Source: Opitutus sp. GAS368 (GTDB taxonomy: Bacteria > Verrucomicrobiota > Verrucomicrobiia > Opitutales > Opitutaceae). From it: 64,000 nucleotides of DNA. This document shows, piece after piece, positions 2,805 through 64,000 of this stretch (position 1 is the stretch's first letter; every line of letters begins with the position of its first letter). Location: contig CAMDOF010000009.1 of the NCBI GenBank assembly GCA_945903465.1, positions 1 through 64,000 on the forward strand, read 5' to 3'. A model generated the notes under the pieces. It made no database searches, was not told the origin of the DNA, and saw only the letters and a program-made list of their open reading frames with translations. The translations under genes and the position numbers were made by a program.

Positions 2805-3000
2805 TTGCGTAACCAGGAAAAACAAAGTAAAGCACCCCGAAAAAGTCAGCGACTCGCGCCGAGCGGATATTCGTAATTCTTTAAAAAATTCTAGAAATGG
2901 AAAGATCAACGGACGTGGTTTTTCCCTGTTTTTAGTTGGGGGCCTAGAAAAAGTGATGAACCTGGCGGTAGATATCAAGGAGGGATAGGAGCTCAGGGCT

Positions 3001-3132
3001 GATTTTTGCACGGACCGGCTCAGAGAGTGGAACGTCCGCGCCCCGCCTTTCTGCGATCGGCACAAAACTGACCGAGCGCAGAGCGCACAGTGCACCCTTT
3101 CGTGCTACCGGTTGCCGTGCAAAAATCCGCCG
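3001..3132. repeat. 132-bp MITE-like element, copy 1
   Basis: The two ends form an inverted repeat (GATTTTTGCACGG on the left; CCGTGCAAAAATC on the right). The whole element recurs in the same orientation and at the same length at 54390-54521. Blocks such as GGACCGGCTCAGAG, CGGCACAAAACT and CCTTTCGTGC are shared, while the centre has diverged. No protein-coding potential is seen. Size, inverted ends and dispersion suggest a non-autonomous transposable element or a structured intergenic repeat; the source transposase is not identifiable. Confidence 0.65.
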
Positions 3133-3286
3133 AGGGTAGAGTTGAAGTCGCGGGCCTTAAGCTTGACTGCAGAGAAGACGTTGGTCGTGGGGTGCGGCCA
3201 TTGCGCCCTAACACCCTCCAGGTGGCGCGCGATCACCTTCGTGGTTTTCACTAGGGCCGGCGAACAAAGTGGGCGCGGATTTGCCC

Positions 3287-3331
3287 ATGACCCAGCGCAC
3301 CCAACGGCACCGGGCGCACCGGTTACACCGG
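3287..3331. repeat. Direct repeat, left copy (partner at 3570)
   Basis: A 45-bp stretch beginning ATGACCC and ending CACCGG is repeated with a few differences about 280 bp downstream. The shared core includes CAACGGCAC and GGGCGCACCG. The repeat lies between the 132-bp element and the transposase relic, so it may be debris of the same insertion history. Confidence 0.6.
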
Positions 3332-3569
3332 CGAAGCGGCTTCGCATTCTGCCAGCGGCGATCGTGAAATCGTGCATTTCTGGCGATTTCGATCTCACCT
3401 TCGCCCGAGTGAGTATTTTCTTAGAAACTTCATCAAAAAACTCTTCTTAAACTTTTCTTCCTGCATGACATGCGCTTAAGGCACCAAGCGTTCACCCGGC
3501 TCCGGTGATTTCCTGATCGCCAGAAATAGACGGTCTTCGCGCCGCCGGTCACACGCATTCTTTAGAACG

Positions 3570-3615
3570 ATGACCCGAGCGCACTCAACGGCACTGGGCG
3601 CACCGTTTGCACCGG
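3570..3615. repeat. Direct repeat, right copy (partner at 3287)
   Basis: This is the second copy of the short direct repeat, one base longer than the first and in the same orientation. It sits just before the transposase relic. Copies flanking 240 bp of unannotated DNA could mark a duplication or a small excised element. Confidence 0.6.
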
Positions 3616-3643
3616 ACCAGCGTGGTGTCCGCAATCTCGTAGA

Positions 3644-3961
3644 TCATCTTGCAGGATCAGCCCCATCTGGCGCGTTTTGAAGCTCGCCAGATTTCTTTCT
3701 TAAAGCCCGACGGAGCGCGCGGCCTGCCTGGGCCGTGTGGGCCTCGGGATTCTTGAGCAAAATCCAGCGAGCCGGTTTGCGCTGTTCGCGGGCGGCCCCC
3801 TCGGCTTGCGCGCACTCGGCCCGACGAGTTTGGTCCACTCCGAAGTTCGCGGGTATGATCACGTGAAACGTCTCGAACACGACGACGGCTCGTCCGCCGG
3901 GATGCTCCCGCACCCCGGAGATATCGGCCGGGCTCACGCCAGCCAAGTTCCTCGCCGACAT
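3644..3961 (-). pseudogene. Relic of an ISL3-family transposase
   Basis: The translated frame contains VVVFETFHVIIPANFGVDQT, then RRAE and, after an Arg/Lys-rich gap, KPARWILLKNPEAHT. This is the order seen in ISL3-family DDE transposases: an I/VVFDxFHVI block, a (D/N)xVRRAE block and a RWLLLKNPEN block. The N-terminal zinc-ribbon and helix-turn-helix part is not readable in one frame; upstream sequence to about 4140 keeps scraps (for example VRVCAEGDAAGGEQ) in shifted frames. The C-terminal catalytic part is gone. The identification rests on motif recall, so it is moderate. Confidence 0.55.
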
Positions 3962-4534
3962 AGTCGTGACAGTTCACCGCCCGGCCGGCCGCGATACTCT
4001 CGGCGGAGCATAATCCGGCCGTCTCTTCGCTCCAGACTCGCCCACGCCGTCCTGTTCGCCACCCGCGGCATCTCCTTCGGCGCATACGCGCACCGCGTCC
4101 CGCGCCACCGCTATCCCAATCCCAAAAGTTCGTGAAATAATTACCCAAATGTCATCCCGCCACCCGACCACGACCCTCACCCTTCTTCACCGGAAACAGC
4201 GAGGAACCTAATTTCAATTCACCCCCGAGCAGCACTCCACGACGCTCTTCGCCAACGCCGCCTCTCCGGAACGAGCACGCCTCCGCCTTAATTTACGCCG
4301 CCCTCAACGCAGAGGCCGGCCAGATCTAAACCCAGCGCAATCGGCCAGCGCTGGCCAGGGCCCGTTTTCTTAACGCCCTGAGGCTCACTCGCCAAGCCCG
4401 CCTCAACGCGCCCCGCGCCCGCCGCCACTCGACCCTGCCGACATCACGGCGCTCCTTGCCCACCTCGACACGGCGCCTCTCGATCCAGAGGCCATTGCTC
4501 GGTTGTCGGGCGCACCGGCTCTCAAACCGCGCCA

Positions 4535-6763
4535 TTAAAAAAGCCACTCGGCCTGGCCGCTCGCCGCCACCGCCGCCGCCACCACCGGACCCGCCGCCGC
4601 GCTCGCGGGCACCGGTGCCACCTTCAAGAACGCTGCGTAGCGCTCCAACCAATCGTCCAGCTTGTCCGTATAGTATTCCGGATCGTAAGGCGCGCGCACG
4701 GCATCGTATAAGCCCAGCGCCTGCGCTCGCTGCCAATCACTCGTCTTACCCTTGGCTTTAAGCGTAATATAATAGCGCACCCGTTCGCCCATTCGCGGTC
4801 GCGGCGACAGCTGTAACGCGACCTCCGCGGACGCTCGCCGAGGTTTCCCGCCCTCCGCCATCAAGCGTTCGTAAGCCTCCGGACTATGGTTGAGCGTCTC
4901 GCTCTTCGCTAATTCGCCCACCGGCATTTCCCGCCCCGCGATCCGTCGACGATAGTCGTCCACCAATGCCAGCGGTGACTCGGCCGTGACTCCGAGCAAA
5001 AACCGAATCAACTGACTCGAAAGCTTTTTTAGGAACGGCTCGATCCCGCGCGACCGCAAAGCGCTACCGCGCAGGATTATTTTCTTACCATCAAACAATG
5101 CGTAGTTCTTCGCTTTGTAGCAAAACATCGCGGCGTAATGGCCATCGTATTCGAGCTCGATTCCCGCCGGCAAAATCGGCTCCACGAGGGCGAGCAACGC
5201 CTCCGGCCTTTCAAAGTAATCCGGCGAAGAGAGGTAAATACCATCGGTATCGGCCTCCAAAATCGTACAACCACGACCGGCAAAATCGTCAATCAACGCT
5301 TGCAGTAACTCCCGACCGCGCCGCGTCACTTCCGCGGCCAGTTCACCATCGCCAAAACGAGCTCCGGAAAATCCCAGATACCCATAAAACGAATTGATCA
5401 AAATCTTGAAATTCGCCTGCCGCGCCTGCGCCTCCGCCCGATCGGTGGCCAGCGCCCCGGTGCGGGCGAGCAACTTATACTTCAACCGATACTCCCGCAA
5501 CTGCCGCAACAAAGGTACAAATACCCCGAGCGTGTCATTCTTCGGATTCCTCGCGATCTGCAACAACAGGCTCGGGTACAACGAGGCGACGTCAAAATGG
5601 AGCACATGCTTAAAGACTCCCTCCTGAAAACTCCGCGTATACCCCCCCGCAAAGGGCGCCACCGCTGGCGGCACGGGACACGCCTGCCGCGCATGATAGT
5701 ACTCCTCAAGAAAAAGCAGATCGATCTTCGAGGTTGCCCCGCGCAACGTCGCCTCTTGCAACATCGTCGGGAAGGTCCGCACTTGTTCAAAGTAGGTGGG
5801 TAATAACTGGTCCGCGAGACCCTGCGTCTCCCGCAAATCGCCCTCGAGGTAAGCGCAAAATCGTGCGCGATCCTGCGCAAACACCTCTTGGATTTTATGG
5901 CCCGCGATATACGCGCGCTCGGCGCTCCCCTCTTCCGTAATTCCAAAGTAAACCGCCACATCCTTCAACCCGTACGAGGTCAACTCTCGGGTCGTAATGT
6001 CATACAGCTGCACCAAAAGATAAGTATCCACCACCGCCCGCCCCGGCAGATCGCAACGAGGAAAATCAATCCAACGCTCGGCCACTTTCAGCCGAGAATT
6101 TCGAAACGATGCCTTCTGCCCGTAGCGACCCCACGCGCAGGGCACTTTATGCAAACGACAACGCTGCCGAAGATAATCGAGATCGAACTTAAAAATATTA
6201 TGCCCCTCGATCACGTCGGGATCGAGTTCGCTCAACACCGCGTTGAACTCGATGAGCAGGGCTTTTTCGGCCTCCGCCGTCATCTCGGCAAGCAGCAGCA
6301 GGCGATTGACGCCCCCCGACCGCAGCCCGATCGCGAGCACGCGGTCTTCGACCTGAGAGGCATCGGAAAAGCGTTCCCCCGCGGACGCCGTTTCGATGTC
6401 TAGCTGGCAACGCCGAACTTCGCCAAACGTAAGATCGCGATAGAGACGCTGGCGCTGTTGCAAAAGAAACTGACTCTCGAAGGGCCTGATCACATCGAGC
6501 CCAATTTGATTCGCCCGCGCCGCTTTGGTGAACAGCTCAAAGTCGCCGAGCGAGGCCGCCGTGACCAGGTGGTCAAACGCGCCGGCTCCGGACAAACGTT
6601 CCAAGGTTAACCGGCCCAAGTCGACGGGCGCCAGCGGGCCCTGCAGCCAAGCAAAGGGCTGAAACGTTTCGAGCCGCTCGACGCGACCACCTTCCGCCGT
6701 GGTGATCGTCGTGAAAACGCGGCCGGTCTCATCGACCCAAACCCCGCATAATGATCCCGTCAT
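4535..6763 (-). CDS. Family B DNA polymerase with 3'-5' proofreading exonuclease
   Basis: A DNA-dependent DNA polymerase of 742 residues, close to the length of archaeal B enzymes and E. coli Pol II. The exonuclease motifs are all present: ExoI LDIET (Asp122, Glu124), ExoII GHNIFKFDLDYL (from 187; Asp194) and ExoIII YLEGD (Tyr305, Asp309). The polymerase motifs follow: A DVASLYPSLLL (Asp391), B KILINSFYGYLG (Lys453) and C EADTDGIYL (Asp505, Asp507). The DTDG form of motif C is the archaeal style, not the DTDS of E. coli Pol II. The C-terminus is an Ala/Val-rich tail ending in EWLF, possibly a clamp-binding tail. The role would be repair or translesion synthesis. No SOS box was identified. A small membrane protein gene lies 17 bp upstream on the same strand. 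Confidence 0.9.
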   Translation of the reverse strand: MTGSLCGVWVDETGRVFTTITTAEGGRVERLETFQPFAWLQGPLAPVDLGRLTLERLSGAGAFDHLVTAASLGDFELFTKAARANQIGLDVIRPFESQFLLQQRQRLYRDLTFGEVRRCQLDIETASAGERFSDASQVEDRVLAIGLRSGGVNRLLLLAEMTAEAEKALLIEFNAVLSELDPDVIEGHNIFKFDLDYLRQRCRLHKVPCAWGRYGQKASFRNSRLKVAERWIDFPRCDLPGRAVVDTYLLVQLYDITTRELTSYGLKDVAVYFGITEEGSAERAYIAGHKIQEVFAQDRARFCAYLEGDLRETQGLADQLLPTYFEQVRTFPTMLQEATLRGATSKIDLLFLEEYYHARQACPVPPAVAPFAGGYTRSFQEGVFKHVLHFDVASLYPSLLLQIARNPKNDTLGVFVPLLRQLREYRLKYKLLARTGALATDRAEAQARQANFKILINSFYGYLGFSGARFGDGELAAEVTRRGRELLQALIDDFAGRGCTILEADTDGIYLSSPDYFERPEALLALVEPILPAGIELEYDGHYAAMFCYKAKNYALFDGKKIILRGSALRSRGIEPFLKKLSSQLIRFLLGVTAESPLALVDDYRRRIAGREMPVGELAKSETLNHSPEAYERLMAEGGKPRRASAEVALQLSPRPRMGERVRYYITLKAKGKTSDWQRAQALGLYDAVRAPYDPEYYTDKLDDWLERYAAFLKVAPVPASAAAGPVVAAAVAASGQAEWLF

Positions 6764-6780
6764 AATGCGGTCAACCCAGC

Positions 6781-7119
6781 TCAGAACGGCTTCAGATAAA
6801 CCATCGTGACCGCCCCAATCGCCAAGACGAACCCAACCATCATCAGGACGTTCGCCTGCGCGCGCCGCTTAAAGGCGACTCCCGCCAAGGCAGACAAGCC
6901 CAGCCACGCCACCAGCTTCGCCATCGCCCAGCCAGGAAAGCCCAGCTGCAGTTTGTGGAGCAGGCCAATCCCGCTCACCAGCATCAACAGGCTCGCCACT
7001 CCCGTGATCATCAAGACTTTCTTGCGCGTCTCGGCCGGCGCGGCAAAGGCGTAAAACGTGTAACCGAGCAACACGATCAAGGAGCTAACGTGGAGGATTT
7101 GGTAGAAGATTGGGCTCAT
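6781..7119 (-). CDS. Small four-helix membrane protein, function unknown
   Basis: A 112-residue protein beginning MSPIFYQILHVSS with about four hydrophobic helices and a short basic loop after the third (FKRRAQ). I do not recognise a named family; the layout resembles small SirB-like or DUF-type inner membrane proteins. The ATG is chosen because the first helix begins right after it. A TTG 51 bp upstream would add 17 polar residues. It lies just upstream of the polymerase gene on the same strand, so co-transcription is possible, but nothing in the protein suggests a DNA-related role. Confidence 0.6.
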   Translation of the reverse strand: MSPIFYQILHVSSLIVLLGYTFYAFAAPAETRKKVLMITGVASLLMLVSGIGLLHKLQLGFPGWAMAKLVAWLGLSALAGVAFKRRAQANVLMMVGFVLAIGAVTMVYLKPF

Positions 7120-7366
7120 GATTAAAATGAAAAGTGACACCCCGCCTGTGCCGTGCGCCCAAAGGCTCAAGACCTTTTTTAGTTAAAGTGGGCGCCTCCA
7201 TCGCAGCGTCTGTCTTCCGGTTTACGGCCTGACATGTTCCACGACGGGTTGAGCTCCCGTTATTTTCCTAAGGCAAAGAGCAGTTATTGAAAGCACCTCG
7301 AACACTGCAGGGTGTCGCCAAAAATCTAGTTAACACCCCACCGCGGTCAAACTCCAATCTGATTAA

Positions 7367-7828
7367 TCACGAACCGAGAATACTCTCATCCAAATTTTGA
7401 ATGATCAACTCCTGCAGCGTCGCCAAAAAAAGATAACACATAAAAGCCTTCCGGACCGGATCGGGAACGGCCAGCAAATCGGCTCCGCCGCCTTCCAGCA
7501 CTTCATCCGCCAGCGGTTTCAGCGCCCGCGCCCTCAGCCGGAGACGGATGGCCGCACAGGCCCGCAGGATCACCTCGGCGTTATCCGCATCAAACGCGAC
7601 GACCCCCTCACGAAAAAAATTATCATCAAAAAGCCCCAGCAAACGGCCCACTTCGACCTTCTGCGCCGCCAGCAACTCATCCGACCACGCCGCCCGAAAA
7701 TCCGCATCCAAATCGTGGAGCGCGAGCGGGGCCGCGAGACTCTCCCCCAAACCGCCAGCCATATCCTTGATCACATCCAGGAGAGGCGCCACCACCGGGA
7801 CGGCCAGCTTTACGTCAATCCGTTTCAT
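7367..7828 (-). CDS. DUF2017-family partner of ClpS
   Basis: A 153-residue, mostly helical soluble protein starting MKRIDVKLAVPVVAPLL, with EVGRLLGLFDDNF and ending LATLQELIIQNLDESIL. It overlaps the end of clpS by 14 bases. DUF2017 genes directly follow clpS in Actinobacteria, and both sequence layout and position fit that family, although I assign it mainly from context. A role in the N-degron/ClpAP pathway is inference. The overlap implies translational coupling with clpS. Confidence 0.65.
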   Translation of the reverse strand: MKRIDVKLAVPVVAPLLDVIKDMAGGLGESLAAPLALHDLDADFRAAWSDELLAAQKVEVGRLLGLFDDNFFREGVVAFDADNAEVILRACAAIRLRLRARALKPLADEVLEGGGADLLAVPDPVRKAFMCYLFLATLQELIIQNLDESILGS

Positions 7829-8114
7829 CCGCCTCCAAGATCGTCGTGAGATGCCACTGCTGGAGGGTAAATGCGTAGGCCTCGGCTTTTTCCCGCAAAC
7901 CGCTCCAAACTACCGAACGACCCTGCTCATGAACTTCGAGCATCTTCCGACGCGCCGTGGTCTCGTCAAAGCCGAGTACTTTTTTAAAAACGAGGACCAC
8001 ATACGACATGAGATTCACCGGATCGTTCAACACGACCACCCGCCAGACTCCCGCCATGGCGAGCTCCGCACGCGTCGCTTCCTGCGGATAGGTGGTTGAA
8101 CTTTTTTGAGTCAC
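7815..8114 (-). CDS. clpS: ClpS adaptor protein, actinobacterial type
   Basis: The adaptor that delivers N-degron substrates to the ClpA/ClpC-ClpP protease. The 99-residue protein has the core WRVVVLNDPVNLMSYVV and then MLEVHEQGRSVVWSG. Asn30, Asp31, Met36 and His62 correspond to the N-end-residue pocket of E. coli ClpS (Asn34, Asp35, Met40, His66), with the same 32-residue spacing from Asn to His. The NDPVNLMSYV version is the one I associate with actinobacterial ClpS rather than the proteobacterial NDDYTPMEFV. The start codon is GTG. It overlaps the DUF2017-like gene downstream. Confidence 0.9.
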   Translation of the reverse strand: MTQKSSTTYPQEATRAELAMAGVWRVVVLNDPVNLMSYVVLVFKKVLGFDETTARRKMLEVHEQGRSVVWSGLREKAEAYAFTLQQWHLTTILEADETD

Positions 8115-8174
8115 GGCCCGCTAGTAAACGACGAGATCCTCCCGCTGCAACTCTGCACATCGCTCGACTCAAAA

Positions 8175-9110
8175 TCATTTAATCTTACGAGCCAGCAAAA
8201 CAATCACCGCTCCACGCTTCGTCAACGCGCGCCAAAGGGTTACGACCGCGGAGAACGGTAACATCAGTCCGCCACCCACCACCGCCACGGCCAACTGCCA
8301 ACGCGCTGCTCGGGCCGCCCCGCTCGGAGGCGCCGATTTTAGCAGAAGATAGAGAAGATTATGGGCCAAGCCCATCCGATTTTGCCAAGTCTGCATTAGG
8401 CTGAAAGCGTCATACTCCGGCGCCCAATAACTTTCCGCCTCGATCTTAAATCCACACTGGCGCAACTGCTCCCGCAGACAGGCCGCGGGAAAATGAACCA
8501 AGTGCCGGGGTACATCGAGATGGAACCAGGCCGACGGCTTCACCTGCGCTTCCGGCGATGAAAAATCGGGTACCGAGACCAAAAAAAGGCCGCCTCCCTT
8601 CAGCAGTCGCGCGCTTTGCTCAAGTACCGAACGAGGATCACGCATATGCTCCAACGTGTGCCAGCTAATCACTGCATCGAAGCTCTCCACCGGAAAATCC
8701 ATGTCGCCCAGGTTCCCCGTCCGCACATCTAAACCGTAGCGCCGCCGCGGGAGGTCCGCCGCCGCCGGCGAGAATTCGGTCCCCACGGTGCGCCAACCCA
8801 GGGCCCGAAAATGAGCCAACAAGTGACCAGGGCCACAACCGATATCTAATACCTTGCCACCAAAGCCGCTCTCCCGCGTGACCCAGCGCGCCCGCCGACG
8901 ATACAACGCGCTCTGCAGCCACTCGACCAGCCAAGGGTACCGCCGTACCTTCTCGCCATAATAGTGCCCGGGATAATGGCGGGCCATCGCCGAGGGCACC
9001 GGGGTCGTCGCCCACCAACCCGCCGCGGTCGGCACCACCGCAAACCCTTCCCCGGTTAAATAATCCTTCGCCAAAATCGCCGCGACCTCGGCTCCCCGCG
9101 GCGACGTCAT
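8175..9110 (-). CDS. Class I SAM-dependent methyltransferase
   Basis: A methyltransferase acting on an unknown small molecule, lipid or glycan. The SAM-binding motif I is VLDIGCGPGHLLAHF, and the post-III region contains ISWHTLEHMRDP. A hydrophobic C-terminal segment (AVAVVGGGLMLPFSAVVTLW) suggests membrane association. The ATG overlaps the stop codon of the upstream glycosyltransferase (ATGA), so the two are translationally coupled. An upstream in-frame codon adding 26 residues is rejected because it lies inside that gene. With the glycosyltransferase it probably modifies an isoprenoid-linked or envelope glycan. Confidence 0.85.
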   Translation of the reverse strand: MTSPRGAEVAAILAKDYLTGEGFAVVPTAAGWWATTPVPSAMARHYPGHYYGEKVRRYPWLVEWLQSALYRRRARWVTRESGFGGKVLDIGCGPGHLLAHFRALGWRTVGTEFSPAAADLPRRRYGLDVRTGNLGDMDFPVESFDAVISWHTLEHMRDPRSVLEQSARLLKGGGLFLVSVPDFSSPEAQVKPSAWFHLDVPRHLVHFPAACLREQLRQCGFKIEAESYWAPEYDAFSLMQTWQNRMGLAHNLLYLLLKSAPPSGAARAARWQLAVAVVGGGLMLPFSAVVTLWRALTKRGAVIVLLARKIK

Positions 9111-9862
9111 CGGCGATCTCCTCCAATCACCTGCCGGCGGGTCACCGCCCGACGGGAACACCGATGCGCCACCGCGACCCACAAGCACCCCAACCCGTAA
9201 CGGACCGAGCGCGTAAAACTGATGGAACTCGCCTCCGCGAAATACTTCGTCGGGCAGGTGACTTCGCCGATCCCGAAACCCCGGCCAAGGATCCAGACCA
9301 GCATTTGGTTATCAAAAATAAAGTCATCATCGAAGGCCTCTAACGGCGCCTCCTCCAATATCTGCCGAGAAAACGCCCGATAACCGGTATGGTACTCGGA
9401 GAGTTTCGCGTTGAGCACCACGTTCTGAAAGAGCGTCAGGAGACGATTGCTCACATAGCGCCACCAAGGCATGCCCCCGCTGAAAGCCTGACCGCCCAGA
9501 ATGCGTGAACCCAGCGCGCACGGGTAGACTTCATAAGCGACGATGCTCGCCAATGCTGTAATTAAACGAGGCGTGTATTGATAATCCGGATGCACCATCA
9601 CCACGACATCAGCTCCCGCCGCCAAGGCGGCGCGATAACAGGTCTTCTGGTTGCCGCCGTAACCCCGGTTCCGATCATGCGCGATCACGTCGATCCCGGG
9701 TAGCGTCCGCGCCAAAGCAACCGTGCCGTCCGCACTGCAATCATCGACCAGCGCGATGTAGTCCACCACGCCTTGCGCCCGCACCTCAGCGTAGGTTTGG
9801 CTCAAAGTCTTTTCCGCGTTATAAGCCGGGAAAACCACCGCAATTTTGTGGCCATTAATCAT
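9107..9862 (-). CDS. Family 2 glycosyltransferase
   Basis: A 251-residue inverting GT2 enzyme of the polyprenyl-phosphate sugar synthase type. It shows AVVFPAYNAEKTL, then VDDCSADGT (nucleotide/metal region), HDRNRGYGGNQKT, MVHPDYQY and GSRILGG. The ATG is chosen because GAGGAGA lies nine bases upstream and the family begins exactly there; longer frames give an unrelated basic N-terminus. There are no strong C-terminal membrane helices, unlike many dolichol-phosphate mannose synthases. The start is divergent from the TMTC-like gene 160 bp away, a plausible sugar-donor/sugar-acceptor pair. Confidence 0.88.
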   Translation of the reverse strand: MINGHKIAVVFPAYNAEKTLSQTYAEVRAQGVVDYIALVDDCSADGTVALARTLPGIDVIAHDRNRGYGGNQKTCYRAALAAGADVVVMVHPDYQYTPRLITALASIVAYEVYPCALGSRILGGQAFSGGMPWWRYVSNRLLTLFQNVVLNAKLSEYHTGYRAFSRQILEEAPLEAFDDDFIFDNQMLVWILGRGFGIGEVTCPTKYFAEASSISFTRSVRYGLGCLWVAVAHRCSRRAVTRRQVIGGDRR

Positions 9863-10022
9863 TGGTAAAATCTCCTCGTCCCACCAGCATACCAGCACCG
9901 TCCCAGATTTTCTTGCGCCCCCTCGGCTCTCTCGGAAAATTGCGGCGTGCTCATTTGCATTCGACCAGAAAACCGTGAGGTCCCGACCACACGCAAATTG
10001 ATTTTTTCGCGCGCTCCCGCCA

Positions 10023-11861
10023 TTGCCTAAGCTCCCCCCACCCCCTGCTCCGACCAGGCAGCCTTTGGCGTCGCGCCTCGCGATCACCGCGGCCTTGCTT
10101 TTGGCCACTCTCGCCGCCTATCGGCACGTCGGCGCCTGCGGATTCGTCAACCTCGACGACGACGCGTACGTCGAGTTTGCTCCGATGGTTAATCAGGGCC
10201 TCCGCCCCGCGGCTTTGGTTTGGGCCGCAACCGCCGTGCACACGGCCAACTGGCACCCGCTGACCTCCGTCTCGCACATGGTAGATTGCGAGCTCTTCGG
10301 GCTGCGCGCCGCGCCCATGCACTGGGAAAACGTCGGCTGGCACCTCCTGAACTGCGCTTTGGTTTTCCTGGTTTGGCATCGCCTGACGCAAGCGATGGGA
10401 CGCTCCGCTTGCGTCGCCGCTCTTTTCGCCCTGCATCCGCTGCACGTCGAATCAGTCGCTTGGATCTCCAGCCGCAAAGACCTCCTTTGTACCGTTTTCT
10501 GGCTGCTGGGAATTTGGGCTTACCTCCGTTGGACCGAGCGCCCGTCGCGCCGCCGCTATCTGCTCGTAGCGCTTTGCCTCACGACCGCCCTCCTTTTTAA
10601 ACCGATGGCGGTTACCCTCCCAGCGACACTTCTGCTGCTTGATGCTTGGCCGCTGCGGCGACGGCCCACGCTCCCCTGGCGCGACCTGATTATAGAAAAA
10701 ATGCCGCTCTTCGCGATTGTCGCGGCCCACAGCGCCATCACCTGGATGGTGCAATCCGGGGCGGGCGCCGCCAACTACGCCGCGCGCATCTCTTTTGAAG
10801 CTCGTCTCGGCAACGCCTTCGTCGCGTATGCCCGCTACGTTGGGAAAATGTTTTGGCCCGAATCACTCTCCCCTCTTTACGCCCATCCCGGTTTCTGGCC
10901 GGCCTCACTCGTCGCGACGGCCGCGATCAGCCTGGGCCTCGCCATCCTCATTGTCTGGCGCCAAAGGCATGCTCGGCCGTGGCTCGCGTTCGGCGGCGCT
11001 TGGTTCCTCGGGACCTTGGTTCCCGTCATTGGGGTTGTCCAGGTCGGCGCGCAGTCCATGGCGGACCGCTACACTTATATGCCCCTCCTTGGTCTTTTTA
11101 CGGCCCTCGCTTGGGGAGGAGCTGAGCTAATCACAACTTACCCTCGCCTGCGACGCCCACTCACGGCCGCCGCGTTCATCGGTCTCGCGGCCTGCGCGCT
11201 CATAACCGATCGGCAAGTGCTGGCATGGGAAAACAGCGAGCGACTTTACCAAAAAAGCATCGCCGGCGGTGAGGACAACGCCTCGATTCGCTATCTGCTC
11301 GCCACCGCCTCGCAAGCCGCCGGTCGCCCCGAGAGCGCGGTCGTCGCCCAGCTGGAAAAGGCGCTCGCCTACGAGCCGGACTACGTCAACGCCCACACCC
11401 AACTCGCCATCATCGCCCTGCGGCACCAACGTTTCGACGAAGCCCTCGCCCGCCTTGAGCAAAATCTCCGCTGGGAACCTCGCAACGAATCACTCCACGT
11501 TAATCTCGGCTCTTTCTGGTCAATCCGCGGCGACATCCCCCGCGGTCTCCGCCACTATCAAGAGGCGCTCGGTCTCAATCCCCGGTCCCCCGGGATTCAT
11601 CGCGAACTTGCGCAAGCCTACCTGAAGCTCAACCAGCCCGGCACCGCCCTTGCTCACTACCAAACCGCCGCCCAACTCGACCCTTGGAATGTTTCCGATT
11701 GGGTAAACGTCGGTCTAATCCTCGGCCAACAAGGTCGGCTCGCGGACGCCAGGCGCGCGTTCACCCGAGCCCTTTGGATCGATCCCTCGAACAACGACGC
11801 TCGCCGCAATCTGCCCATCGTCGATCAGCTCGAGCGCGGGCAAATGCCCCGATCACCGTAG
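10023..11861 (+). CDS. TMTC-like multi-spanning membrane protein with C-terminal TPR repeats
   Basis: A 612-residue protein with about nine to ten hydrophobic helices in its first 400 residues and tetratricopeptide repeats from about 440 to 600. The N-terminal half carries LDDDAYV, HPLHVESVAWISSRKDLL and ADRYTYMPLLG, hallmarks of TMTC-type (DUF1736) proteins, whose animal members are O-mannosyltransferases. The Asp-rich loop after the first helix is typical of GT-C glycosyltransferases. It is therefore a candidate protein O-glycosyltransferase using a lipid-linked sugar. The TTG start is only moderately supported, since no ribosome binding site is obvious. It is divergent from the GT2 gene, which could supply its donor. 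Confidence 0.8.
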   Translation: MPKLPPPPAPTRQPLASRLAITAALLLATLAAYRHVGACGFVNLDDDAYVEFAPMVNQGLRPAALVWAATAVHTANWHPLTSVSHMVDCELFGLRAAPMHWENVGWHLLNCALVFLVWHRLTQAMGRSACVAALFALHPLHVESVAWISSRKDLLCTVFWLLGIWAYLRWTERPSRRRYLLVALCLTTALLFKPMAVTLPATLLLLDAWPLRRRPTLPWRDLIIEKMPLFAIVAAHSAITWMVQSGAGAANYAARISFEARLGNAFVAYARYVGKMFWPESLSPLYAHPGFWPASLVATAAISLGLAILIVWRQRHARPWLAFGGAWFLGTLVPVIGVVQVGAQSMADRYTYMPLLGLFTALAWGGAELITTYPRLRRPLTAAAFIGLAACALITDRQVLAWENSERLYQKSIAGGEDNASIRYLLATASQAAGRPESAVVAQLEKALAYEPDYVNAHTQLAIIALRHQRFDEALARLEQNLRWEPRNESLHVNLGSFWSIRGDIPRGLRHYQEALGLNPRSPGIHRELAQAYLKLNQPGTALAHYQTAAQLDPWNVSDWVNVGLILGQQGRLADARRAFTRALWIDPSNNDARRNLPIVDQLERGQMPRSP

Positions 11862-56970: not shown

Positions 56971-57382
56971 GCCACCAGAGACCGCCGAAGAACCCGCCAG
57001 CCCGTCTCGTCAGTTAAAATTAAATCACATTTTTTTGGAACTAAGGAACGAGCACGCGCGTGACCGAATTATCATCGCCGCGCTACCCTGAATTTCCGCA
57101 CGCAACTTCCGGCCATTTTAAATCATCGCCGAAGCTGGCAAAACTGCCGGATCGAATCATGCGAGGCTCAAAGCACCTCCAGTGCTGGAGACCCTGAGCG
57201 GCGACCGCACTCCTCGCCATCGAGAACCACCGCGCCCCGGCGACGCTCCGTTGCCACCCTGCGCACGGCCGACCGAGCGCCCCCGCTTCCGCCGTGCATC
57301 TGCAAAGCAATGCCGCTCCTCCGAAAAACTTTTTTCAGGGATCCCGCATTTTGTCGTTGCGGGTCTGATTGTCCGGGAACCA
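56971..57382. other. No gene seen
   Basis: A 412-base gap between the lysozyme-fold gene and the SNF2-type helicase. Upstream in-frame codons extend the helicase frame to 57182, but with Pro/Arg-rich sequence not typical of the family. The helicase promoter is expected here. Confidence 0.45.
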
Positions 57383-59824
57383 ATGCATCCCGCTCAACCG
57401 ATGCTGCGACTCCACCTGCCACCCAACCTCGCCTCCGCCGCTCCCCGTGACGCCATCGCCGTGCGCGTGGAACTTGACCTGAGCACTTCCCCGACCCCTG
57501 AACTTTTTACCGGTCTCGCACTTTTACAACGCTGGTGCGGCACGACCACCCCGCCGGCTTTTCTCCAACTCACCCGCTCGCAATTACGCCAGCTGATCGA
57601 TGCGCTTCGTGCTCAGTCCGTCTTCTTTTGGGTAAATGGGCCCCCCACCGCCATCACCTGGAACGACACCGAGCTCTCGGGCGTTTCCATCTTTCTCCGC
57701 CCTGTCATCACCGCCCGAGCCAAGCTCGCCGTCACCGAACCCAAGCCGCCCATCCGATCCCCGACCGGTGCCCCCCAGCCGTTAACTGTCGACGGCGGCG
57801 AACACTTTATCGCCCTCTCCCTCCCTTCTCGCGAACACCCACGTTACGCCGAGGCTCTCGCCTTGCTCAAGGAGAGCGGCTTCACCCTCGAACCGTCCAA
57901 CCGAAAATGGTGGCTCCGCGATCGCCATAAAGTCCTTAACTTTATCGCCGCCCACCGGACCCGGCTACGCGAAACATTCGCCGCCGAGTTCACGCTGAAC
58001 TTCCAAAAAAATACCAGCCATCTGCATCAGGCCGAAATCGCCGCGGAGGTGACCGAAGCCGGTGATAGTTTCTCGGTTAGCCTCGGCCTGCGCGCGGGCC
58101 CCGCCGACGAGGTCGCGCTCCGCTCCGCGGTCGCGACCAACCGAGGCTACCTCGAGGCCGGCGGAAAGGTGTTCCTTTTTGATCGTCAGCAACTCGAGAA
58201 ACTCACGGCCGCGCAGCGCGCCCTGACCGGTGATCCCACCACGGGCTTCGCGCCACGACGAACCCAGCGGGTCTCCGCGGCCCGTGCGGCCGAAGCTCAG
58301 GAGATTCTCGAGGAACTCTCCCCCGGTTTCCAATCGCCCGAGTCCTGGAAAACGCGCAGCCACGCCCTCCGTCACCTCAGCGCCCTCGCCCCCGCGCCCA
58401 TGGCGGCGCCACTCCATGACCAACTCCGGCCCTATCAGCGGCTCGGGGCAGCTTGGCTCTGGCACCTTTACCGTCATGAGCTCGGCGGTATTCTCGCGGA
58501 CGAAATGGGTCTGGGGAAAACGCTCCAAGCCCTCGCCCTGCTCACCGCGCTGCCCGGCCGCCCGTCCTCCCACCAGGCCACCGGCCGCCCTCTTTTTAGC
58601 GCCCTCAGTCTCGTGATTGCGCCCGCCTCCCTGCTCGAAAACTGGCGCCGCGAGGCCGCCCGCTTCGCTCCGCAGTTGCGCGTCTTTGTCCATCACGCGG
58701 GTCAACGCTTAAGCTCCGCCGCCGCGTTCGTAAATCACGACCTCGTCATCACCAGTTACGGCACCCTTGCCCGCGATCAGGCATTATTTACTTCGATTGA
58801 ATTTACCGCCGTCGTCGCGGATGAGGCTCAGCATATTAAAAACCGCCGTTCCCAAAATGCGGCCGCGCTGCGGGCCTTGCGCGCGCGCGCCCGCTTCCTG
58901 CTCACCGGGACCCCACTCGAAAACTCCCTCGACGACCTCCGCTCGCTCTTCGAATTCCTGCTCCCCGGCTATCTCACAAAAATCCCCGCCGGCATCCGCG
59001 GCGACGAACGCGGCTGGTTCGACGAGCGCCTCAAGGCGCAGACCGCCCCCTATATTTTGCGCCGTACAAAAAAAGCCGTCGCGCCCGAACTACCCGAAAA
59101 ACTCGAGCAGGTCATTTGGTGCGAGCTGACCCCCGCTCAGGCCAAGCTCTACCGCGAGACCCAAGAAAGATCGGAACGAGAACTTTTTGACCTCGAAGCG
59201 GGCGGGGCCAATCAAGCTGCCCTGCAATTCACCGCACTCACGCAACTCCTCCGCCTCCGCCAAATCTGCTGCGATCCTCGGCTCATCGCCCCGGATTCGT
59301 CCCCCGATCTTTCCACCAAGCTCGAAAGCTTTAACGAACTCCTCGCCGAGGCGATCGACGATGGCCATCGCGTCCTCGTCTTCTCCCAGTTCACCTCTCT
59401 GCTCGCGTTGCTCCGCACGGCACTCGACACCCAGGCGATCCCCCACTGTTACCTCGATGGCTCCATGACCACCGCCGCCCGTCAGGCCGCCGTCGATCTA
59501 TTTCAATCCTCGCCTGATATTCCGCTGTTTCTCCTCTCGCTCAAGGCGGGCGGCACCGGCCTCAATCTCACCGGCGCGGATACGGTCGTGCATTTCGACC
59601 CTTGGTGGAATCCAGCGGCCGAAGCCCAAGCGACTGATCGCGCCCATCGCATCGGCCAAACGCGCGTCGTCACCAGCTACAAACTCATCGCCGCCGGTAC
59701 CGTCGAAGAAAAAGTCCTCGCCCTCCAAACCGAGAAACGCGCGCTCCTCGCGGGTGTTTTCGAGGCCAGCGATGCGGCGGCGGCCAAACTTTCCCTCGCC
59801 GACCTGAAATTTTTACTCAAGTAA
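57383..59824 (+). CDS. SWI2/SNF2-family ATP-dependent helicase
   Basis: An 813-residue DNA translocase of the bacterial SNF2 type. The N-terminal 350 residues are specific to this group. The ATPase core shows DEMGLGKT (from Asp373; Lys379), IAPASLLENWRRE, VITSYGTL, DEAQH (from Asp480), LTGTPLENS, and the second lobe FSQFTSLLALLRTAL, SLKAGGTGLNLTGADTV and DRAHRIGQTR. The ATG at the family start is chosen; another in-frame ATG at 57401 is equally possible. It may act in chromosome or RNA-polymerase remodelling. It is followed 76 bases later by the dehydrogenase gene. Confidence 0.93.
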   Translation: MHPAQPMLRLHLPPNLASAAPRDAIAVRVELDLSTSPTPELFTGLALLQRWCGTTTPPAFLQLTRSQLRQLIDALRAQSVFFWVNGPPTAITWNDTELSGVSIFLRPVITARAKLAVTEPKPPIRSPTGAPQPLTVDGGEHFIALSLPSREHPRYAEALALLKESGFTLEPSNRKWWLRDRHKVLNFIAAHRTRLRETFAAEFTLNFQKNTSHLHQAEIAAEVTEAGDSFSVSLGLRAGPADEVALRSAVATNRGYLEAGGKVFLFDRQQLEKLTAAQRALTGDPTTGFAPRRTQRVSAARAAEAQEILEELSPGFQSPESWKTRSHALRHLSALAPAPMAAPLHDQLRPYQRLGAAWLWHLYRHELGGILADEMGLGKTLQALALLTALPGRPSSHQATGRPLFSALSLVIAPASLLENWRREAARFAPQLRVFVHHAGQRLSSAAAFVNHDLVITSYGTLARDQALFTSIEFTAVVADEAQHIKNRRSQNAAALRALRARARFLLTGTPLENSLDDLRSLFEFLLPGYLTKIPAGIRGDERGWFDERLKAQTAPYILRRTKKAVAPELPEKLEQVIWCELTPAQAKLYRETQERSERELFDLEAGGANQAALQFTALTQLLRLRQICCDPRLIAPDSSPDLSTKLESFNELLAEAIDDGHRVLVFSQFTSLLALLRTALDTQAIPHCYLDGSMTTAARQAAVDLFQSSPDIPLFLLSLKAGGTGLNLTGADTVVHFDPWWNPAAEAQATDRAHRIGQTRVVTSYKLIAAGTVEEKVLALQTEKRALLAGVFEASDAAAAKLSLADLKFLLK

Positions 59825-59900: not shown

Positions 59901-60698
59901 ATGCGCCTCACTGGAAAAACTGTCCTCATCACTGGCGCGAGCAAGGGCATCGGCCGCACGCTCGCGCTCGGCTGCGCCCGCGAGGGTGCCGACGTTATCC
60001 TTAACTATCATTCAGACCGAGCTGGGGCCGAATCCGCCGCCTCCGAAATTCAAGCTCTCGGCCGAAAAACGCTCGTCGTCCGGGCCGACCTCGCCCGCGT
60101 CAAACAGATCGACCGCATGTTCGCGACCGCGCGACAACACTTCCCGCGCCTCGACGTCCTCATTAATAATGCCGGACTCACCGGCTGGGCCAGTTTTTTT
60201 GATACGACCGAGGAAAAATGGGACGTCGTCCTCAACACCAATCTCAAAGGCACTTTCTTCTGCTCGCTCGCCGCCGCCCGCTGGATGCGCGCCACCCAAA
60301 CGGCCGGCAGTATCGTCAACGTCTCCACCCAGTGCGCCCAGCTCGCGGTTAAAAATCTCGTCGCCTACGGCACCAGTAAGGCCGCCATCCACGGCCTCAC
60401 GAAACAACTCGCCGTCGAGCTCGCCGCGCTCGGAATCCGCGTGAACACGTTCGCCCCGGGCCCCGTCAATGTTGACCGCAATCTCAAAGACGATCCCGAC
60501 TATCGCGACGTCTGGGGCGCGATGATTCCCCTCGGCCGTACCGCCGAGACCGCGGAAATGGTCGGCCCCGCCCTCTTCCTCGCCTCGAGCGATTCAAGCT
60601 ACGTCACCGGCCAGACGTTATACGTCGACGGCGGCTGGACCGTGCAGGGCATGGTCCCCACCAGCAACGTCGAAAAAGCCGCGAAAAAAAACCGCTAG
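59901..60698 (+). CDS. Short-chain dehydrogenase/reductase, candidate pentose dehydrogenase
   Basis: A 265-residue SDR with the NAD(P)-binding TGASKGIG (11-18), NNAG and the catalytic YGTSK (Tyr156, Lys160) plus an upstream Ser in VSTQC. The context is a pentose-oxidation cluster, so it is a candidate for D-xylose (or another aldose) 1-dehydrogenase, giving the lactone/aldonate; alternatively it may oxidise 2-keto-3-deoxy-pentonate. The sequence alone does not decide. The ATG is chosen by the family's start. Confidence 0.85.
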   Translation: MRLTGKTVLITGASKGIGRTLALGCAREGADVILNYHSDRAGAESAASEIQALGRKTLVVRADLARVKQIDRMFATARQHFPRLDVLINNAGLTGWASFFDTTEEKWDVVLNTNLKGTFFCSLAAARWMRATQTAGSIVNVSTQCAQLAVKNLVAYGTSKAAIHGLTKQLAVELAALGIRVNTFAPGPVNVDRNLKDDPDYRDVWGAMIPLGRTAETAEMVGPALFLASSDSSYVTGQTLYVDGGWTVQGMVPTSNVEKAAKKNR

Positions 60699-60757
60699 GG
60701 CCGCACTCTGTATCTAATTTTTGATTACATAAAAGTCCCCGCCGACCCACTTCTCTT

Positions 60758-61591
60758 ATGCTTCGCCTCTACGCCACGACCGCCGGATTAATCATCGAAA
60801 AAAATGGCCAGTGCATCACGCCGACCGTCGCGCTTTCCCTCGATGCGCTCTTTCATGCGACCGACCCCGTCGCCGTGGTCGCGGCCGCCTTCGCCAGTGG
60901 CCGGGCCACCGCTGCTCCCGTGGCCGCTGCCTTGCTCGCCCCGCTGCAATCTCAAGAAGTCTGGGCCGCCGGGGTCACCTACTTTCGGAGCCGCACCGCG
61001 CGCATGGAGGAATCCAAGGTCGCCGGCGGCGGTAGCTTCTACGACCGGGTCTATGAGGCGGATCGCCCAGAGATTTTTTTTAAAGCCACCCCGCACCGCG
61101 TCGCCGCTCCGGGTACCGGCGTCGGTATTCGCTCCGACTCCCGCTGGAATGTCCCCGAACCGGAGCTCACGCTCGCCATCAACTCTTCCGGAAAAATCTT
61201 CGGGTACACTCTTGGCAACGATATGAGTTCGCGGGATATCGAGGGCGAAAACCCCCTCTACCTGCCGCAGGCCAAGGTCTACCATCGCAGCGCCGCCCTC
61301 GGCCCGTGCCTAATCGTCACGACCACCCTGCCCGCCGCCGACGCGATCATCGCGATCGAGATTTGCCGCGCCGGCGCGACCGTTTTTTCCGGCCAAACGA
61401 CCGTCGGCCAGATCAAGCGCCCTCTCGCATCGCTCGCCGACTGGCTCTTTCGCGATAACACGTTCCCCGATGGCGCCTACTTAATGACCGGTACCGGCGT
61501 GGTCCCGCCCGACGCCTTCACGCTCCAGCCGGCGGACGAGATCCGCATCAGCCTTGAGCCCGTCGGTATTCTCGTTAACCACGTCCTCTAA
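60758..61591 (+). CDS. FAH-family 2-keto-3-deoxy-pentonate dehydratase
   Basis: A 277-residue fumarylacetoacetate-hydrolase-fold enzyme. Diagnostic blocks are VGIRSDSRWNVPEPELTLAI and GNDMSSRDIEGENPLYLPQA, closest to 2-keto-3-deoxy-D-arabinonate/xylonate dehydratases. It would dehydrate the keto-deoxy acid to 2-oxoglutarate semialdehyde, needing Mg2+ or Mn2+ bound by acidic residues in these blocks. The next gene encodes the enzyme that oxidises that semialdehyde, which supports the assignment. Confidence 0.87.
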   Translation: MLRLYATTAGLIIEKNGQCITPTVALSLDALFHATDPVAVVAAAFASGRATAAPVAAALLAPLQSQEVWAAGVTYFRSRTARMEESKVAGGGSFYDRVYEADRPEIFFKATPHRVAAPGTGVGIRSDSRWNVPEPELTLAINSSGKIFGYTLGNDMSSRDIEGENPLYLPQAKVYHRSAALGPCLIVTTTLPAADAIIAIEICRAGATVFSGQTTVGQIKRPLASLADWLFRDNTFPDGAYLMTGTGVVPPDAFTLQPADEIRISLEPVGILVNHVL

Positions 61592-61773
61592 ATTCCACTC
61601 CCGCGCGTTCTTTTACCCGCTTCCGACCACCGCCCGCTCACCCCGGCCGCGCGCTCCCGCCGCCCCGCTTTTAACGAACGACGGCGCTCTTTTTTTTCGC
61701 CAGCCTGGCGCACGTCTGCCACCATCGCCCTCCGCTCGCGGTTCTCCTTTAATCACTCCTCTCCTTCGCTCCC

Positions 61774-63369
61774 ATGTCTCTCCACGGTCTTAGCCTCCTC
61801 GCTGGTCATCCCGGAAAAATCGGCGGAAAATCATTTCAGGCCATCAATCCTACGACGAATACGCCCCTCAATCCCTCCTTTCATGAGGCGTCTCCCGCTG
61901 AAGTGAATGCCGCGCTCGACGACGCCGCCGCCGCCTTCGCCGCCGACCGAGCCCGCTCTGGCGCCGATCGCGCGAAATTTCTCGAAACCATTGCCAGCGA
62001 GATTGAGGCCCTCGGCGATTCACTTCTGCAGCGCGCCCACCAAGAATCCGGCCTGCCACTCGCCCGCCTCACCGGCGAACGCGGCCGCACCTGTGGACAG
62101 CTCCGCCTCTTCGCCCAACTCGCCCGCGAGGGCTCGTGGGTCGACGCGCGCATCGATCCCGCTCTACCCGACCGCCAACCGCTCCCGCGGGTCGATATCC
62201 GCCGCCTGCTCGTCCCGCTCGGCCCCGTCGTTGTCTTCGGTTCGTCCAACTTCCCACTCGCGTTCTCCGTGGCTGGGGGCGACACCGCTTCCGCGCTCGC
62301 CGCCGGTTGCACCGTCGTCGTTAAAGCTCACCGTGCCCACCCCGGTACCTCCGAGCTCGTCGCCACCGCGATCAATCGCGCCATCGTCATTTGCGGCCTG
62401 CCTCCGGCGACCTTCTCCCTCATCCACGGCGGCGGTGCGACCATCGGTATCGCCATGGTGAAACATCCTGCCACGACCGCGGTAGGGTTCACGGGTTCCT
62501 CCGCCGCTGGCCGCGCGCTCTGCGATGCCGCCGCCGCGCGCCCTCACCCGATTCCGGTCTTCGCCGAGATGAGCAGCCTCAACCCACTCTTCATTCTGCC
62601 GGGCGCTCTCGCGGAACGGGCCACGGCCATCGCGGCCGGCCTCGTCACTTCCTTCACGCTCGGCGTCGGCCAATTTTGCACCAAGCCCGGCCTCGTCTTC
62701 CTCGTGCGCGGCCCGGACACGGACGCTTTTCTCCAGAAGCTCGCCACCACGGTCTGCGCCGCTCCTACTGGCACGATGCTCACAAGCGGTATCCGCGATG
62801 CCTTCCTTGAACATCGCGCTAAAGTCACCGGTCTCGCCGGGGTCCATCTCCTTGCCGCCGCCACCACGGTTATCCAAGAGGCCCGCACCGAAACATCGCC
62901 GAGCGTCGCCACCACCTCCGCTCAAAATTTCCTCGCCCAGCCGACCCTCGCCACCGAGGCCTTCGGGCCCTTCACGGTGGTCGTCAGTTGTGAAAACGCC
63001 TCCGAACTCGTCGCATGCGCGCGCTCCCTCGAAGGTCAACTCACCGCCACCGTGCACGGTAACGCCGCTGACCTGGCGGGAGCGCATCCGCTCCTCGCTG
63101 CCCTCGAACGAATCGCCGGCCGCGTCGTCCTGAATGGCTTTCCCACCGGCGTCGAGGTCTGCTCCGCGATGAACCACGGCGGTCCTTACCCCGCCACCTC
63201 CGATCCTCGTTTCACCTCCGTCGGAACCGCCGCGATCCTCCGCTTCGCCCGCCCCGTCTGCTACCAAAATTTCCCCGACGCCTTGCTTCCCGACGCCTTG
63301 AAAAATGCAAACCCACTCGGGTTGTTGCGGCTCGTGGAAGGTCAGCCGACACGGGAGACCCGAGCCTGA
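61774..63369 (+). CDS. Alpha-ketoglutaric-semialdehyde-type dehydrogenase
   Basis: A 531-residue aldehyde dehydrogenase with the KGSA-dehydrogenase (AraE/XylA-type) features: GSSNFPLAFSVAGGDTASAL, GFTGSSAAGRAL, catalytic Glu265 (FAEMSSLNP) and catalytic Cys302 (GQFCTKPG). It would oxidise 2-oxoglutarate semialdehyde to 2-oxoglutarate with NAD(P)+. It is the last complete step of the cluster. The family's longer-than-usual length is normal for this subgroup. Confidence 0.9.
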   Translation: MSLHGLSLLAGHPGKIGGKSFQAINPTTNTPLNPSFHEASPAEVNAALDDAAAAFAADRARSGADRAKFLETIASEIEALGDSLLQRAHQESGLPLARLTGERGRTCGQLRLFAQLAREGSWVDARIDPALPDRQPLPRVDIRRLLVPLGPVVVFGSSNFPLAFSVAGGDTASALAAGCTVVVKAHRAHPGTSELVATAINRAIVICGLPPATFSLIHGGGATIGIAMVKHPATTAVGFTGSSAAGRALCDAAAARPHPIPVFAEMSSLNPLFILPGALAERATAIAAGLVTSFTLGVGQFCTKPGLVFLVRGPDTDAFLQKLATTVCAAPTGTMLTSGIRDAFLEHRAKVTGLAGVHLLAAATTVIQEARTETSPSVATTSAQNFLAQPTLATEAFGPFTVVVSCENASELVACARSLEGQLTATVHGNAADLAGAHPLLAALERIAGRVVLNGFPTGVEVCSAMNHGGPYPATSDPRFTSVGTAAILRFARPVCYQNFPDALLPDALKNANPLGLLRLVEGQPTRETRA

Positions 63370-63824
63370 AGTCACCGACGAATTCTCGAATCACCCATCT
63401 TCATGTCCTTCGCTTCGATTGGCAGCAGCGACGCGATTCCCGGTTACCCCAGCGCGGTTCCGAGCCGACCGAGCGGCCTCGGCCGTCAGCTCTTTAACCT
63501 TCAAAGCGGAGTGATCCATCATCGTGCTACTCGCCGGAAATTTCGCATTCTTCCCTCCTTGGCCAGGACGATGGACGGATCGATCGCTTGGTTTAATCCT
63601 ACGAAATCCCCGCGCGCGCGCACGAGATGCCACCGGTTTCGCTCCGACCAAGAAAAAAGCAGGCCGATTATTTTCGGGCTCCTCGAAAAACTTTGGAAAG
63701 GGCCACGGCCGATGACGACCTCTGGGCCATCCCTCCGCTCATTGAGCAGTCGAGCCAACACCGCGGACCGCGCCGAGCATTCTCGCTCACAGTCCTCCTT
63801 TTAAACACAGTCACACCCTGACCC
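63370..63824. other. No gene seen
   Basis: A 455-base gap inside the pentose cluster. Frames on both strands (for example near 63519-63761 minus) lack family resemblance. The promoter and ribosome binding site of the dehydratase should lie here but no clear motif is called. Confidence 0.45.
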
Positions 63825-64000
63825 ATGCCCTCACCCATCTTCGATTCACCCGAGGCCATTTATACCCTGCGCACAACCGCGGTGGGTCCGGCGGGCAAAC
63901 TCCCGCTCGAACCCGCGCAGCTTCGTAGCATGGCCAGCGGCGATCTCTTCGGTTGGACCCAAAACGCCGGAATGGGCTGGTCACCCGCCGCCATGCTCGG
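63825..64000 (+). CDS. YjhG/YagF-type sugar-acid dehydratase, 3' end outside the window
   Basis: The first 58 codons of a large ILVD/EDD-family dehydratase. The start shows IYTLRTTAVGPAGKLPL and SGDLFGWTQNAGMGWSPA, the characteristic beginning of the E. coli YjhG/YagF D-xylonate dehydratases. It would make 2-keto-3-deoxy-xylonate from xylonate, the substrate of the FAH-family enzyme upstream. Iron-sulfur cluster ligands lie in the missing part. Confidence 0.85.
   Translation, partial: MPSPIFDSPEAIYTLRTTAVGPAGKLPLEPAQLRSMASGDLFGWTQNAGMGWSPAAML

Follow-up and report, generated by a model that had tools for sequence, protein, structure and literature searches.

Four genes lie in a row on the plus strand at the right edge of a 64,000-nucleotide stretch of DNA from Opitutus sp. 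GAS368 (hereafter the window), and the question they raise is which substrate they degrade and by which route. They encode a short-chain dehydrogenase/reductase (SDR), a FAH-family protein, an aldehyde dehydrogenase (ALDH) and a YjhG/YagF-family dehydratase (Table 1). A preliminary description, made from the letters of the window, had read them as a Weimberg-type cluster running from free aldose to 2-oxoglutarate, and all four reading frames are indeed present in the order and on the strand which it gave. The window covers 1-64000 of a contig (C9) that is 92,380 bases long, and the right flank beyond it could therefore be read as well; the source genome is an 8.16 Mb draft with a completeness of 93%. 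We consider it likely that the last three genes form the lower module of a Weimberg-type (Route II) pathway from D-pentonate to 2-oxoglutarate. The YjhG/YagF-type dehydratase would convert a D-pentonate, most likely D-xylonate, to 2-keto-3-deoxy-D-pentonate and water, the KdaD-like FAH protein, using Mg2+ bound at E134, E136 and D155 and a Glu105/Lys173 dyad, would dehydrate this further to 2-oxoglutarate semialdehyde, and the NADP+-type ALDH would oxidise the semialdehyde to 2-oxoglutarate, which enters the tricarboxylic acid cycle. That the SDR turns the free sugar into its lactone is a guess; alternatively, an aldonate made or taken up by other means may feed the module. Observed are the genes themselves, the families to which they belong, the conserved residues, the co-occurrence of the genes and their recurring neighbours; reactions, substrate and direction are, throughout, predictions from sequence.

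Table 1. Genes of the row and of its right flank (positions are those of the window unless the contig is named).
Feature	Position	Strand	Remarks
SDR-family dehydrogenase	59901..60698	+	265 aa; PF13561 1e-63, PF00106; candidate aldose 1-dehydrogenase
FAH-family protein, KdaD-like, putative 2-keto-3-deoxy-D-pentonate dehydratase	60758..61591	+	277 aa; PF01557
Aldehyde dehydrogenase, NADP+ type, putative 2-oxoglutarate semialdehyde dehydrogenase	61774..63369	+	531 aa; PF00171
YjhG/YagF-family dehydratase, 5' part	63825..64000	+	635 aa; 3' end outside window, contig 65732 (L004:4825-6732); TIGR03432
LacI-type regulator	contig C9 66478-67611
SGNH hydrolase-like open reading frame		-	by eye; no NCBIfam match
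Malonate transporter subunits MadM and MadL, both scoring above cut-off; malonyl-CoA synthase-like gene, scoring below	contig C9 68376-70997 (L004:9376-11997)	-	outside window
TonB-dependent receptor, then two sulfatase-like open reading frames			beyond the malonate genes; the sulfatases by eye

If the FAH-family protein is a 2-keto-3-deoxypentonate (KDP) dehydratase, it should carry the metal site and the Glu/Lys dyad of such an enzyme, and score, residues and fold all point this way. Compared with sequences of the PDB it scored 185 bits with KdaD (2q18), 86 bits with 9kkt, which came next, and at most 31 bits with five others. A fold search with its AlphaFold model (mean pLDDT, the predicted local distance difference test, of 88) returned four KdaD entries on top, with template modelling (TM) scores of 0.81-0.85, then 9kkt/9kkv, titled there "2-keto-3-deoxy-D-xylo...", and the remaining FAH members below. 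Residues E105, E134, E136, D155 and K173 correspond to KdaD E114, E143, E145, D164 and K182 and are invariant across an alignment of 14 members. The protein is of the short KdaD type and not of the long type (383-404 aa), to which the FAH enzyme of Caulobacter presumably belongs. In the FAH tree, GguC and the long group stood on very long branches, the long group being placed among the short bacterial ones, and because of these branches the tree was not used to decide sister relations between the kinds. The roles of the KdaD metal and catalytic residues are taken from PMC9795676, where residue 164 is printed as Glu, while the sequence compared here has Asp; in an archaeal D-KDP dehydratase a particular glutamate abstracts the C3 proton, according to PMC6336799. 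The D-specific KDP dehydratases studied all belong to the FAH family and the L-specific ones all to the DHDPS family, according to PMC7374468, a split which is consistent with a D-xylonate dehydratase as the partner of the FAH protein. Residue roles and literature together favour, though they do not prove, a D-pentonate substrate. The preliminary description had conceded that the FAH enzyme might be a mere hydrolase; its KdaD-like sequence, catalytic residues and fold make this unlikely, and a role as an acylpyruvate or diketo hydrolase was considered improbable in view of the residues and the fold. As separate observations, FAH relatives in three genomes of the same genus (L063, L064 and L065 in G005, G011 and G004; 50-53% identity) are preceded by a different ALDH, 26-27% identical to that of the window, and perhaps represent a sub-type of their own, and a Terriglobia genome has a tandem pair of FAH genes of the same family as the window gene (L117, 5971-7691).

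The dehydratase scored 1058 bits in the NCBIfam profile search with TIGR03432 (cut-off 808), which supports its assignment as a pentonate dehydratase, and the NCBIfam name of this YjhG/YagF family refers to D-xylonate. Seven other IlvD/EDD models listed gave at most 320 bits, the L-arabinonate dehydratase model giving 212. The protein is 63% identical to E. coli YagF and has in common with YjhG and YagF the cysteine motifs CDKG and GGGCQF, which we take to be Fe-S cluster ligands in this family. No 2-keto-3-deoxypentonate aldolase, as in the Dahms pathway, was found by NCBIfam scan in the six open reading frames (ORFs) to the right of the dehydratase. A quick tree was built from 58 dehydratases, for the most part picked via FAH; in it the FAH-partnered members were scattered throughout, and E. 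coli YjhG and YagF clustered with the FAH-partnered protein of Deinococcus (SH-aLRT branch support 95). A further YjhG-family dehydratase, 66% identical to that of the window, occurs in a relative (L079, G002:C97:22500-42400, 628-11437); its companions, which cluster with those of locus L067, are a zinc-type dehydrogenase, transketolase halves, an HMGL/DmpG-type aldolase and an acylating acetaldehyde dehydrogenase, and this set could be an aldolase route with acyl-CoA as its end product.

The ALDH matched 3v4c (463 bits) and 1eyy (450 bits) in the PDB, the next entry scoring 82 bits, and it shares 54% identity with NADP+ aldehyde dehydrogenases from both Runella and Azospirillum. The matching gene comes after FAH in Runella, and in Azospirillum after SMP-30 lactonase and DHDPS-family genes, with gguAB-chvE close by. 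The likely catalytic Cys and Glu of the window ALDH, in the motifs usual for the family, align with those of the named homologues. A literature search on this ALDH type gave no useful paper, and it is by analogy of gene context that the enzyme is put forward as a 2-oxoglutarate semialdehyde dehydrogenase.

Among 57 genomes, that of the window included, FAH was found in 33 and ALDH in 28; the TIGR03432 cut-off was exceeded in 30, besides two contig-edge fragments. The dehydratase was present in 30 of the 33 genomes with FAH and in 2 of the 24 without it (p 1.5e-10), and outside the genus in six of nine against none of 21 (p 1.4e-4), by Fisher tests that leave kinship among genomes uncorrected. 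ALDH directly follows FAH in 18 of 33 loci, a dehydratase of at least 75% identity lies on the same stretch as FAH in ten, and the full order SDR-FAH-ALDH-dehydratase was counted manually in four, some other loci being cut by contig ends. ALDH and dehydratase are adjacent on another contig in six FAH genomes (G007, G009, G010, G015, G022 and G025), and also in G020, where FAH was not found. Across the phylum as a whole the module is not common, since an even draw of 115 genomes contained FAH in four (one of them weak, 118 bits) and the dehydratase in four; three of these genomes, all of the same family, have the two close together. One of the three, G143, is a complete genome. It has FAH beside the dehydratase and, some 3.4 kb past FAH, a gene of the sodium:solute symporter family; its 20 kb stretch shows no match to the window ALDH, and ten ORFs scanned include no lactonase.

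Beyond the phylum, the best 80 of at least 594 FAH relatives (one genome per species, flanks of about 6 kb where contigs allowed) came, by record title, from Verrucomicrobiota, Acidobacteriota, Bacteroidota, Planctomycetota, Armatimonadetes, Spirochaetales and others. These loci were selected by FAH, and the counts say nothing on YjhG genes in general. A YjhG/YagF-type dehydratase lay near FAH in 29 of the 80, an ALDH of the window type in 25, both in nine and one or both in 45; among the 46 loci with nearly full flanks the dehydratase was near in 14 and the ALDH in 13. GntP permease was found near FAH at seven of the 80 loci, an SDR match at eight and a YjhH-type aldolase at none. Long ORFs without Pfam match beside FAH (e.g. 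L058:7890-9134 and L062:8418-9659) are probably out of frame, the former overlapping an SDR match on the opposite strand. At ten loci, all titled Acidobacteriota and all with the dehydratase, a common neighbour family occurs, the single scanned member of which is a major facilitator superfamily transporter, and at five of the 80 the scanned member of another common neighbour is SMP-30 lactonase-like; transporter and lactonase genes thus do join the FAH module in other organisms. The preliminary description had called a YjhG-type dehydratase an unusual partner in such a pathway, which does not hold, as beside a KdaD-like FAH it recurs in several phyla, with pairs in Acidobacteriota, Planctomycetota and other Verrucomicrobiota.

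Comparison with known systems points to a known kind of pathway in a combination of enzymes for which we found no description. The plasmid pDEIPE01 of Deinococcus peraridilitoris (265444-271320) carries FAH, ALDH (NADP+; 41% identity) and YjhG/YagF dehydratase in the order of the window, but has a FAD-binding oxidoreductase in place of the SDR and, unlike the window, a TRAP (tripartite ATP-independent periplasmic) transporter and GntR-family regulators nearby. Chance would not give such recurring FAH-ALDH and dehydratase neighbourhoods, in relatives and on this named plasmid. The xyl operon of Caulobacter crescentus combines, as is proposed for the window, an IlvD/EDD-family pentonate dehydratase, a FAH-family KDP dehydratase and a semialdehyde dehydrogenase and ends in 2-oxoglutarate (PMC9795676 and PMC6995148), whereas the window has a dehydratase of the YjhG/YagF branch and a FAH of the short KdaD kind. 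The E. coli clusters yjhFGHI and yagEFG, of the Dahms type, have the dehydratase family in common with the window, but there it adjoins the YjhH/YagE aldolase (PMC12445098) and here FAH and ALDH. Archaeal Route II (Sulfolobus KdaD and haloarchaeal clusters) uses FAH of the same kind, that of Haloarcula being 52% identical over 76% of the query, while its pentonate dehydratase, unlike that of the window, is of the enolase/mandelate racemase kind, as seen in the Haloarcula neighbour and in PMC6336799.

Several observations weigh against the proposed module. The curated model of 2-oxoglutarate semialdehyde dehydrogenase, GucD, scores the ALDH at 98.6 bits against a cut-off of 770; the best NCBIfam score of the ALDH is with HpaE, another semialdehyde dehydrogenase, and also lies below cut-off; and 1eyy, of the same family, is not known as a 2-oxoglutarate semialdehyde dehydrogenase. 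Within the genus alone the association of FAH and dehydratase is not significant (24 of 24 against two of three, p 0.11), and the p-values given above are overstated because congeneric genomes are not independent. Among the 33 FAH genomes eight have no ALDH of the window type and three no dehydratase, and 35 of the 80 FAH loci have neither of the two near, some of these being cut by contig ends. The kind of FAH enzyme does not by itself settle the choice between a D and an L substrate, since L-KDP-preferring FAH/MhpD-type enzymes are reported in PMC6336799. The gaps between the four genes are 59, 182 and 455 nt, so a single tight operon is not evident, the two longer ones being no proof of co-transcription, and no inverted repeat near the genes gave an operator candidate that could be linked to more than one of them. 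Finally, a lactonase, a transporter and a regulator had been expected to the right; the flank has the LacI-type regulator, followed by malonate-use genes and others, and no sugar transporter was recognised in it. SMP-30 (PF08450), the one lactonase family searched, has no match on the contig and 16 in the genome, and a search for GntP permease in the 93% complete genome found none. A xylose isomerase is encoded on another contig, and D-xylose therefore need not use the module. On these grounds it is as likely that the module receives xylonate, or a sugar acid produced by other reactions of the cell, as that free xylose feeds it directly.

This bears on the view of the preliminary description that the row is a complete sugar pathway in which the SDR makes the lactone from the free pentose, a view which overlaps with the favoured one and differs in the first step only, and which we regard as rather doubtful. 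At 10 of 33 loci, that of the window among them, the SDR gene lies immediately ahead of FAH, with at least 84% identity; the distance in the window is 59 nt. All 15 genomes with an SDR orthologue (E 1e-70 in the set of 57) also carry FAH and the dehydratase, the latter as a contig-edge fragment in two. On the other hand, the SDR tracks the module poorly, with 15 genomes against 33 for FAH, and is placed away from FAH in five (G002, G011, G019, G024 and G032); in the last three it is accompanied by genes for a Gfo/Idh/MocA oxidoreductase, a zinc-type dehydrogenase and one transketolase half or both, labelled in part by clustering with scanned L067 members. Its best NCBIfam models, L-rhamnose 1-dehydrogenase (208 bits, cut-off 400) and glucose 1-dehydrogenase (204, cut-off 215), are both below cut-off, its two nearest PDB chains are FabG-type reductases, FabG 4jro outscoring the glucose dehydrogenases, and these databases single out no aldose dehydrogenase. 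The xylose isomerase and the lack of SMP-30 on the contig also speak against this view. The dehydratase, FAH and ALDH core of the earlier Weimberg reading has good support from homology and gene context; the SDR as maker of the aldonate, an aldose 1-dehydrogenase, is a guess. In their own right, loci L067, L068 and L069 combine orthologues of the window SDR with genes for a Gfo/Idh/MocA oxidoreductase, a zinc dehydrogenase and transketolase halves; L068 adds a TIM barrel gene resembling xylose isomerase. By sequence such sets appear to be some sugar pathway.

Still less probable, in our judgement, is another entry substrate with the same chemistry, D-arabinonate or an acid from a uronate or another sugar, for which FAH and ALDH would form a general outlet of 2-keto-3-deoxy acids to 2-oxoglutarate. 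FAH relatives do occur beside altronate dehydratase-family and ALDH genes in Runella, beside UxaA, DHDPS and gucD genes in Priestia (this gucD being 25% identical to the window ALDH) and beside the glucuronate isomerase UxaC in L062, and at 51 of the 80 FAH loci, those cut by contig ends being counted too, the flanks of about 6 kb contain no YjhG-type gene. The partner in the window, however, belongs to the family named for D-xylonate, and it is with this family that FAH co-occurs in the relatives. The least probable alternative is Route III, in which the SDR would oxidise C4 of the 2-keto-3-deoxy acid and the FAH enzyme would hydrolyse the 2,4-diketo acid to pyruvate and glycolate (or lactate), leaving the ALDH to act elsewhere: such gene sets do consist of a dehydrogenase, a FAH-type hydrolase and a dehydratase, as described for pentoses in Herbaspirillum in PMC6336799, and the SDR does adjoin FAH here, but the FAH protein has the dehydratase glutamate of KdaD (E105), KdaD and 9kkt/9kkv rank ahead of the L-2,4-diketo-3-deoxyrhamnonate hydrolase structures (8gst at rank 15 of the fold search, 8gst/8gsr at 15 and lower), and the SDR does not follow the module.

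Upstream of the row a helicase-like protein of about 800-880 aa (57182-59824, by eye) also stands upstream in 12 of 32 relatives' loci with 61-78% identity; we regard this as chance synteny. Inside its frame ARAGORN called a tRNA-Leu with anticodon AAG (57878-57974, minus strand), which is probably a false call.

The favoured reading, a Weimberg-type lower module, thus concerns a known pathway whose enzyme combination we did not find described. The open-licence literature yielded no paper joining Verrucomicrobiota with Weimberg or Opitutaceae with xylonate, nor one on a YagF dehydratase in Acidobacteriota, Deinococcus not being covered by the search, which is no proof that none is in print. 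Weimberg together with Planctomycetes turned up only xylose isomerase work; judged by titles and the opening of abstracts, Weimberg together with Acidobacteriota turned up only coral microbiome work and the same xylose isomerase work, and papers on YjhG xylonate dehydratase and Weimberg were mostly engineering or reviews. We tentatively suggest, as a possibility somewhat short of even, that in Verrucomicrobiota, Acidobacteriota, Planctomycetota and Deinococcota the YjhG/YagF family, which in E. coli opens an aldolase route, acts mainly with a KdaD of archaeal type to convert xylonate to 2-oxoglutarate, which would be a widespread oxidative pentonate route outside the usual carriers of the Weimberg pathway. 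The chemistry is already known. If the assignments are true, several phyla for which the literature searched contained no discussion of the Weimberg pathway would naturally pair a xylonate dehydratase of the E. coli type with a second dehydratase of the archaeal type; naturally matched enzyme sets would be at hand for a pathway now engineered from mixed sources, and genome-based models of how these bacteria use pentoses and xylonate would be corrected.

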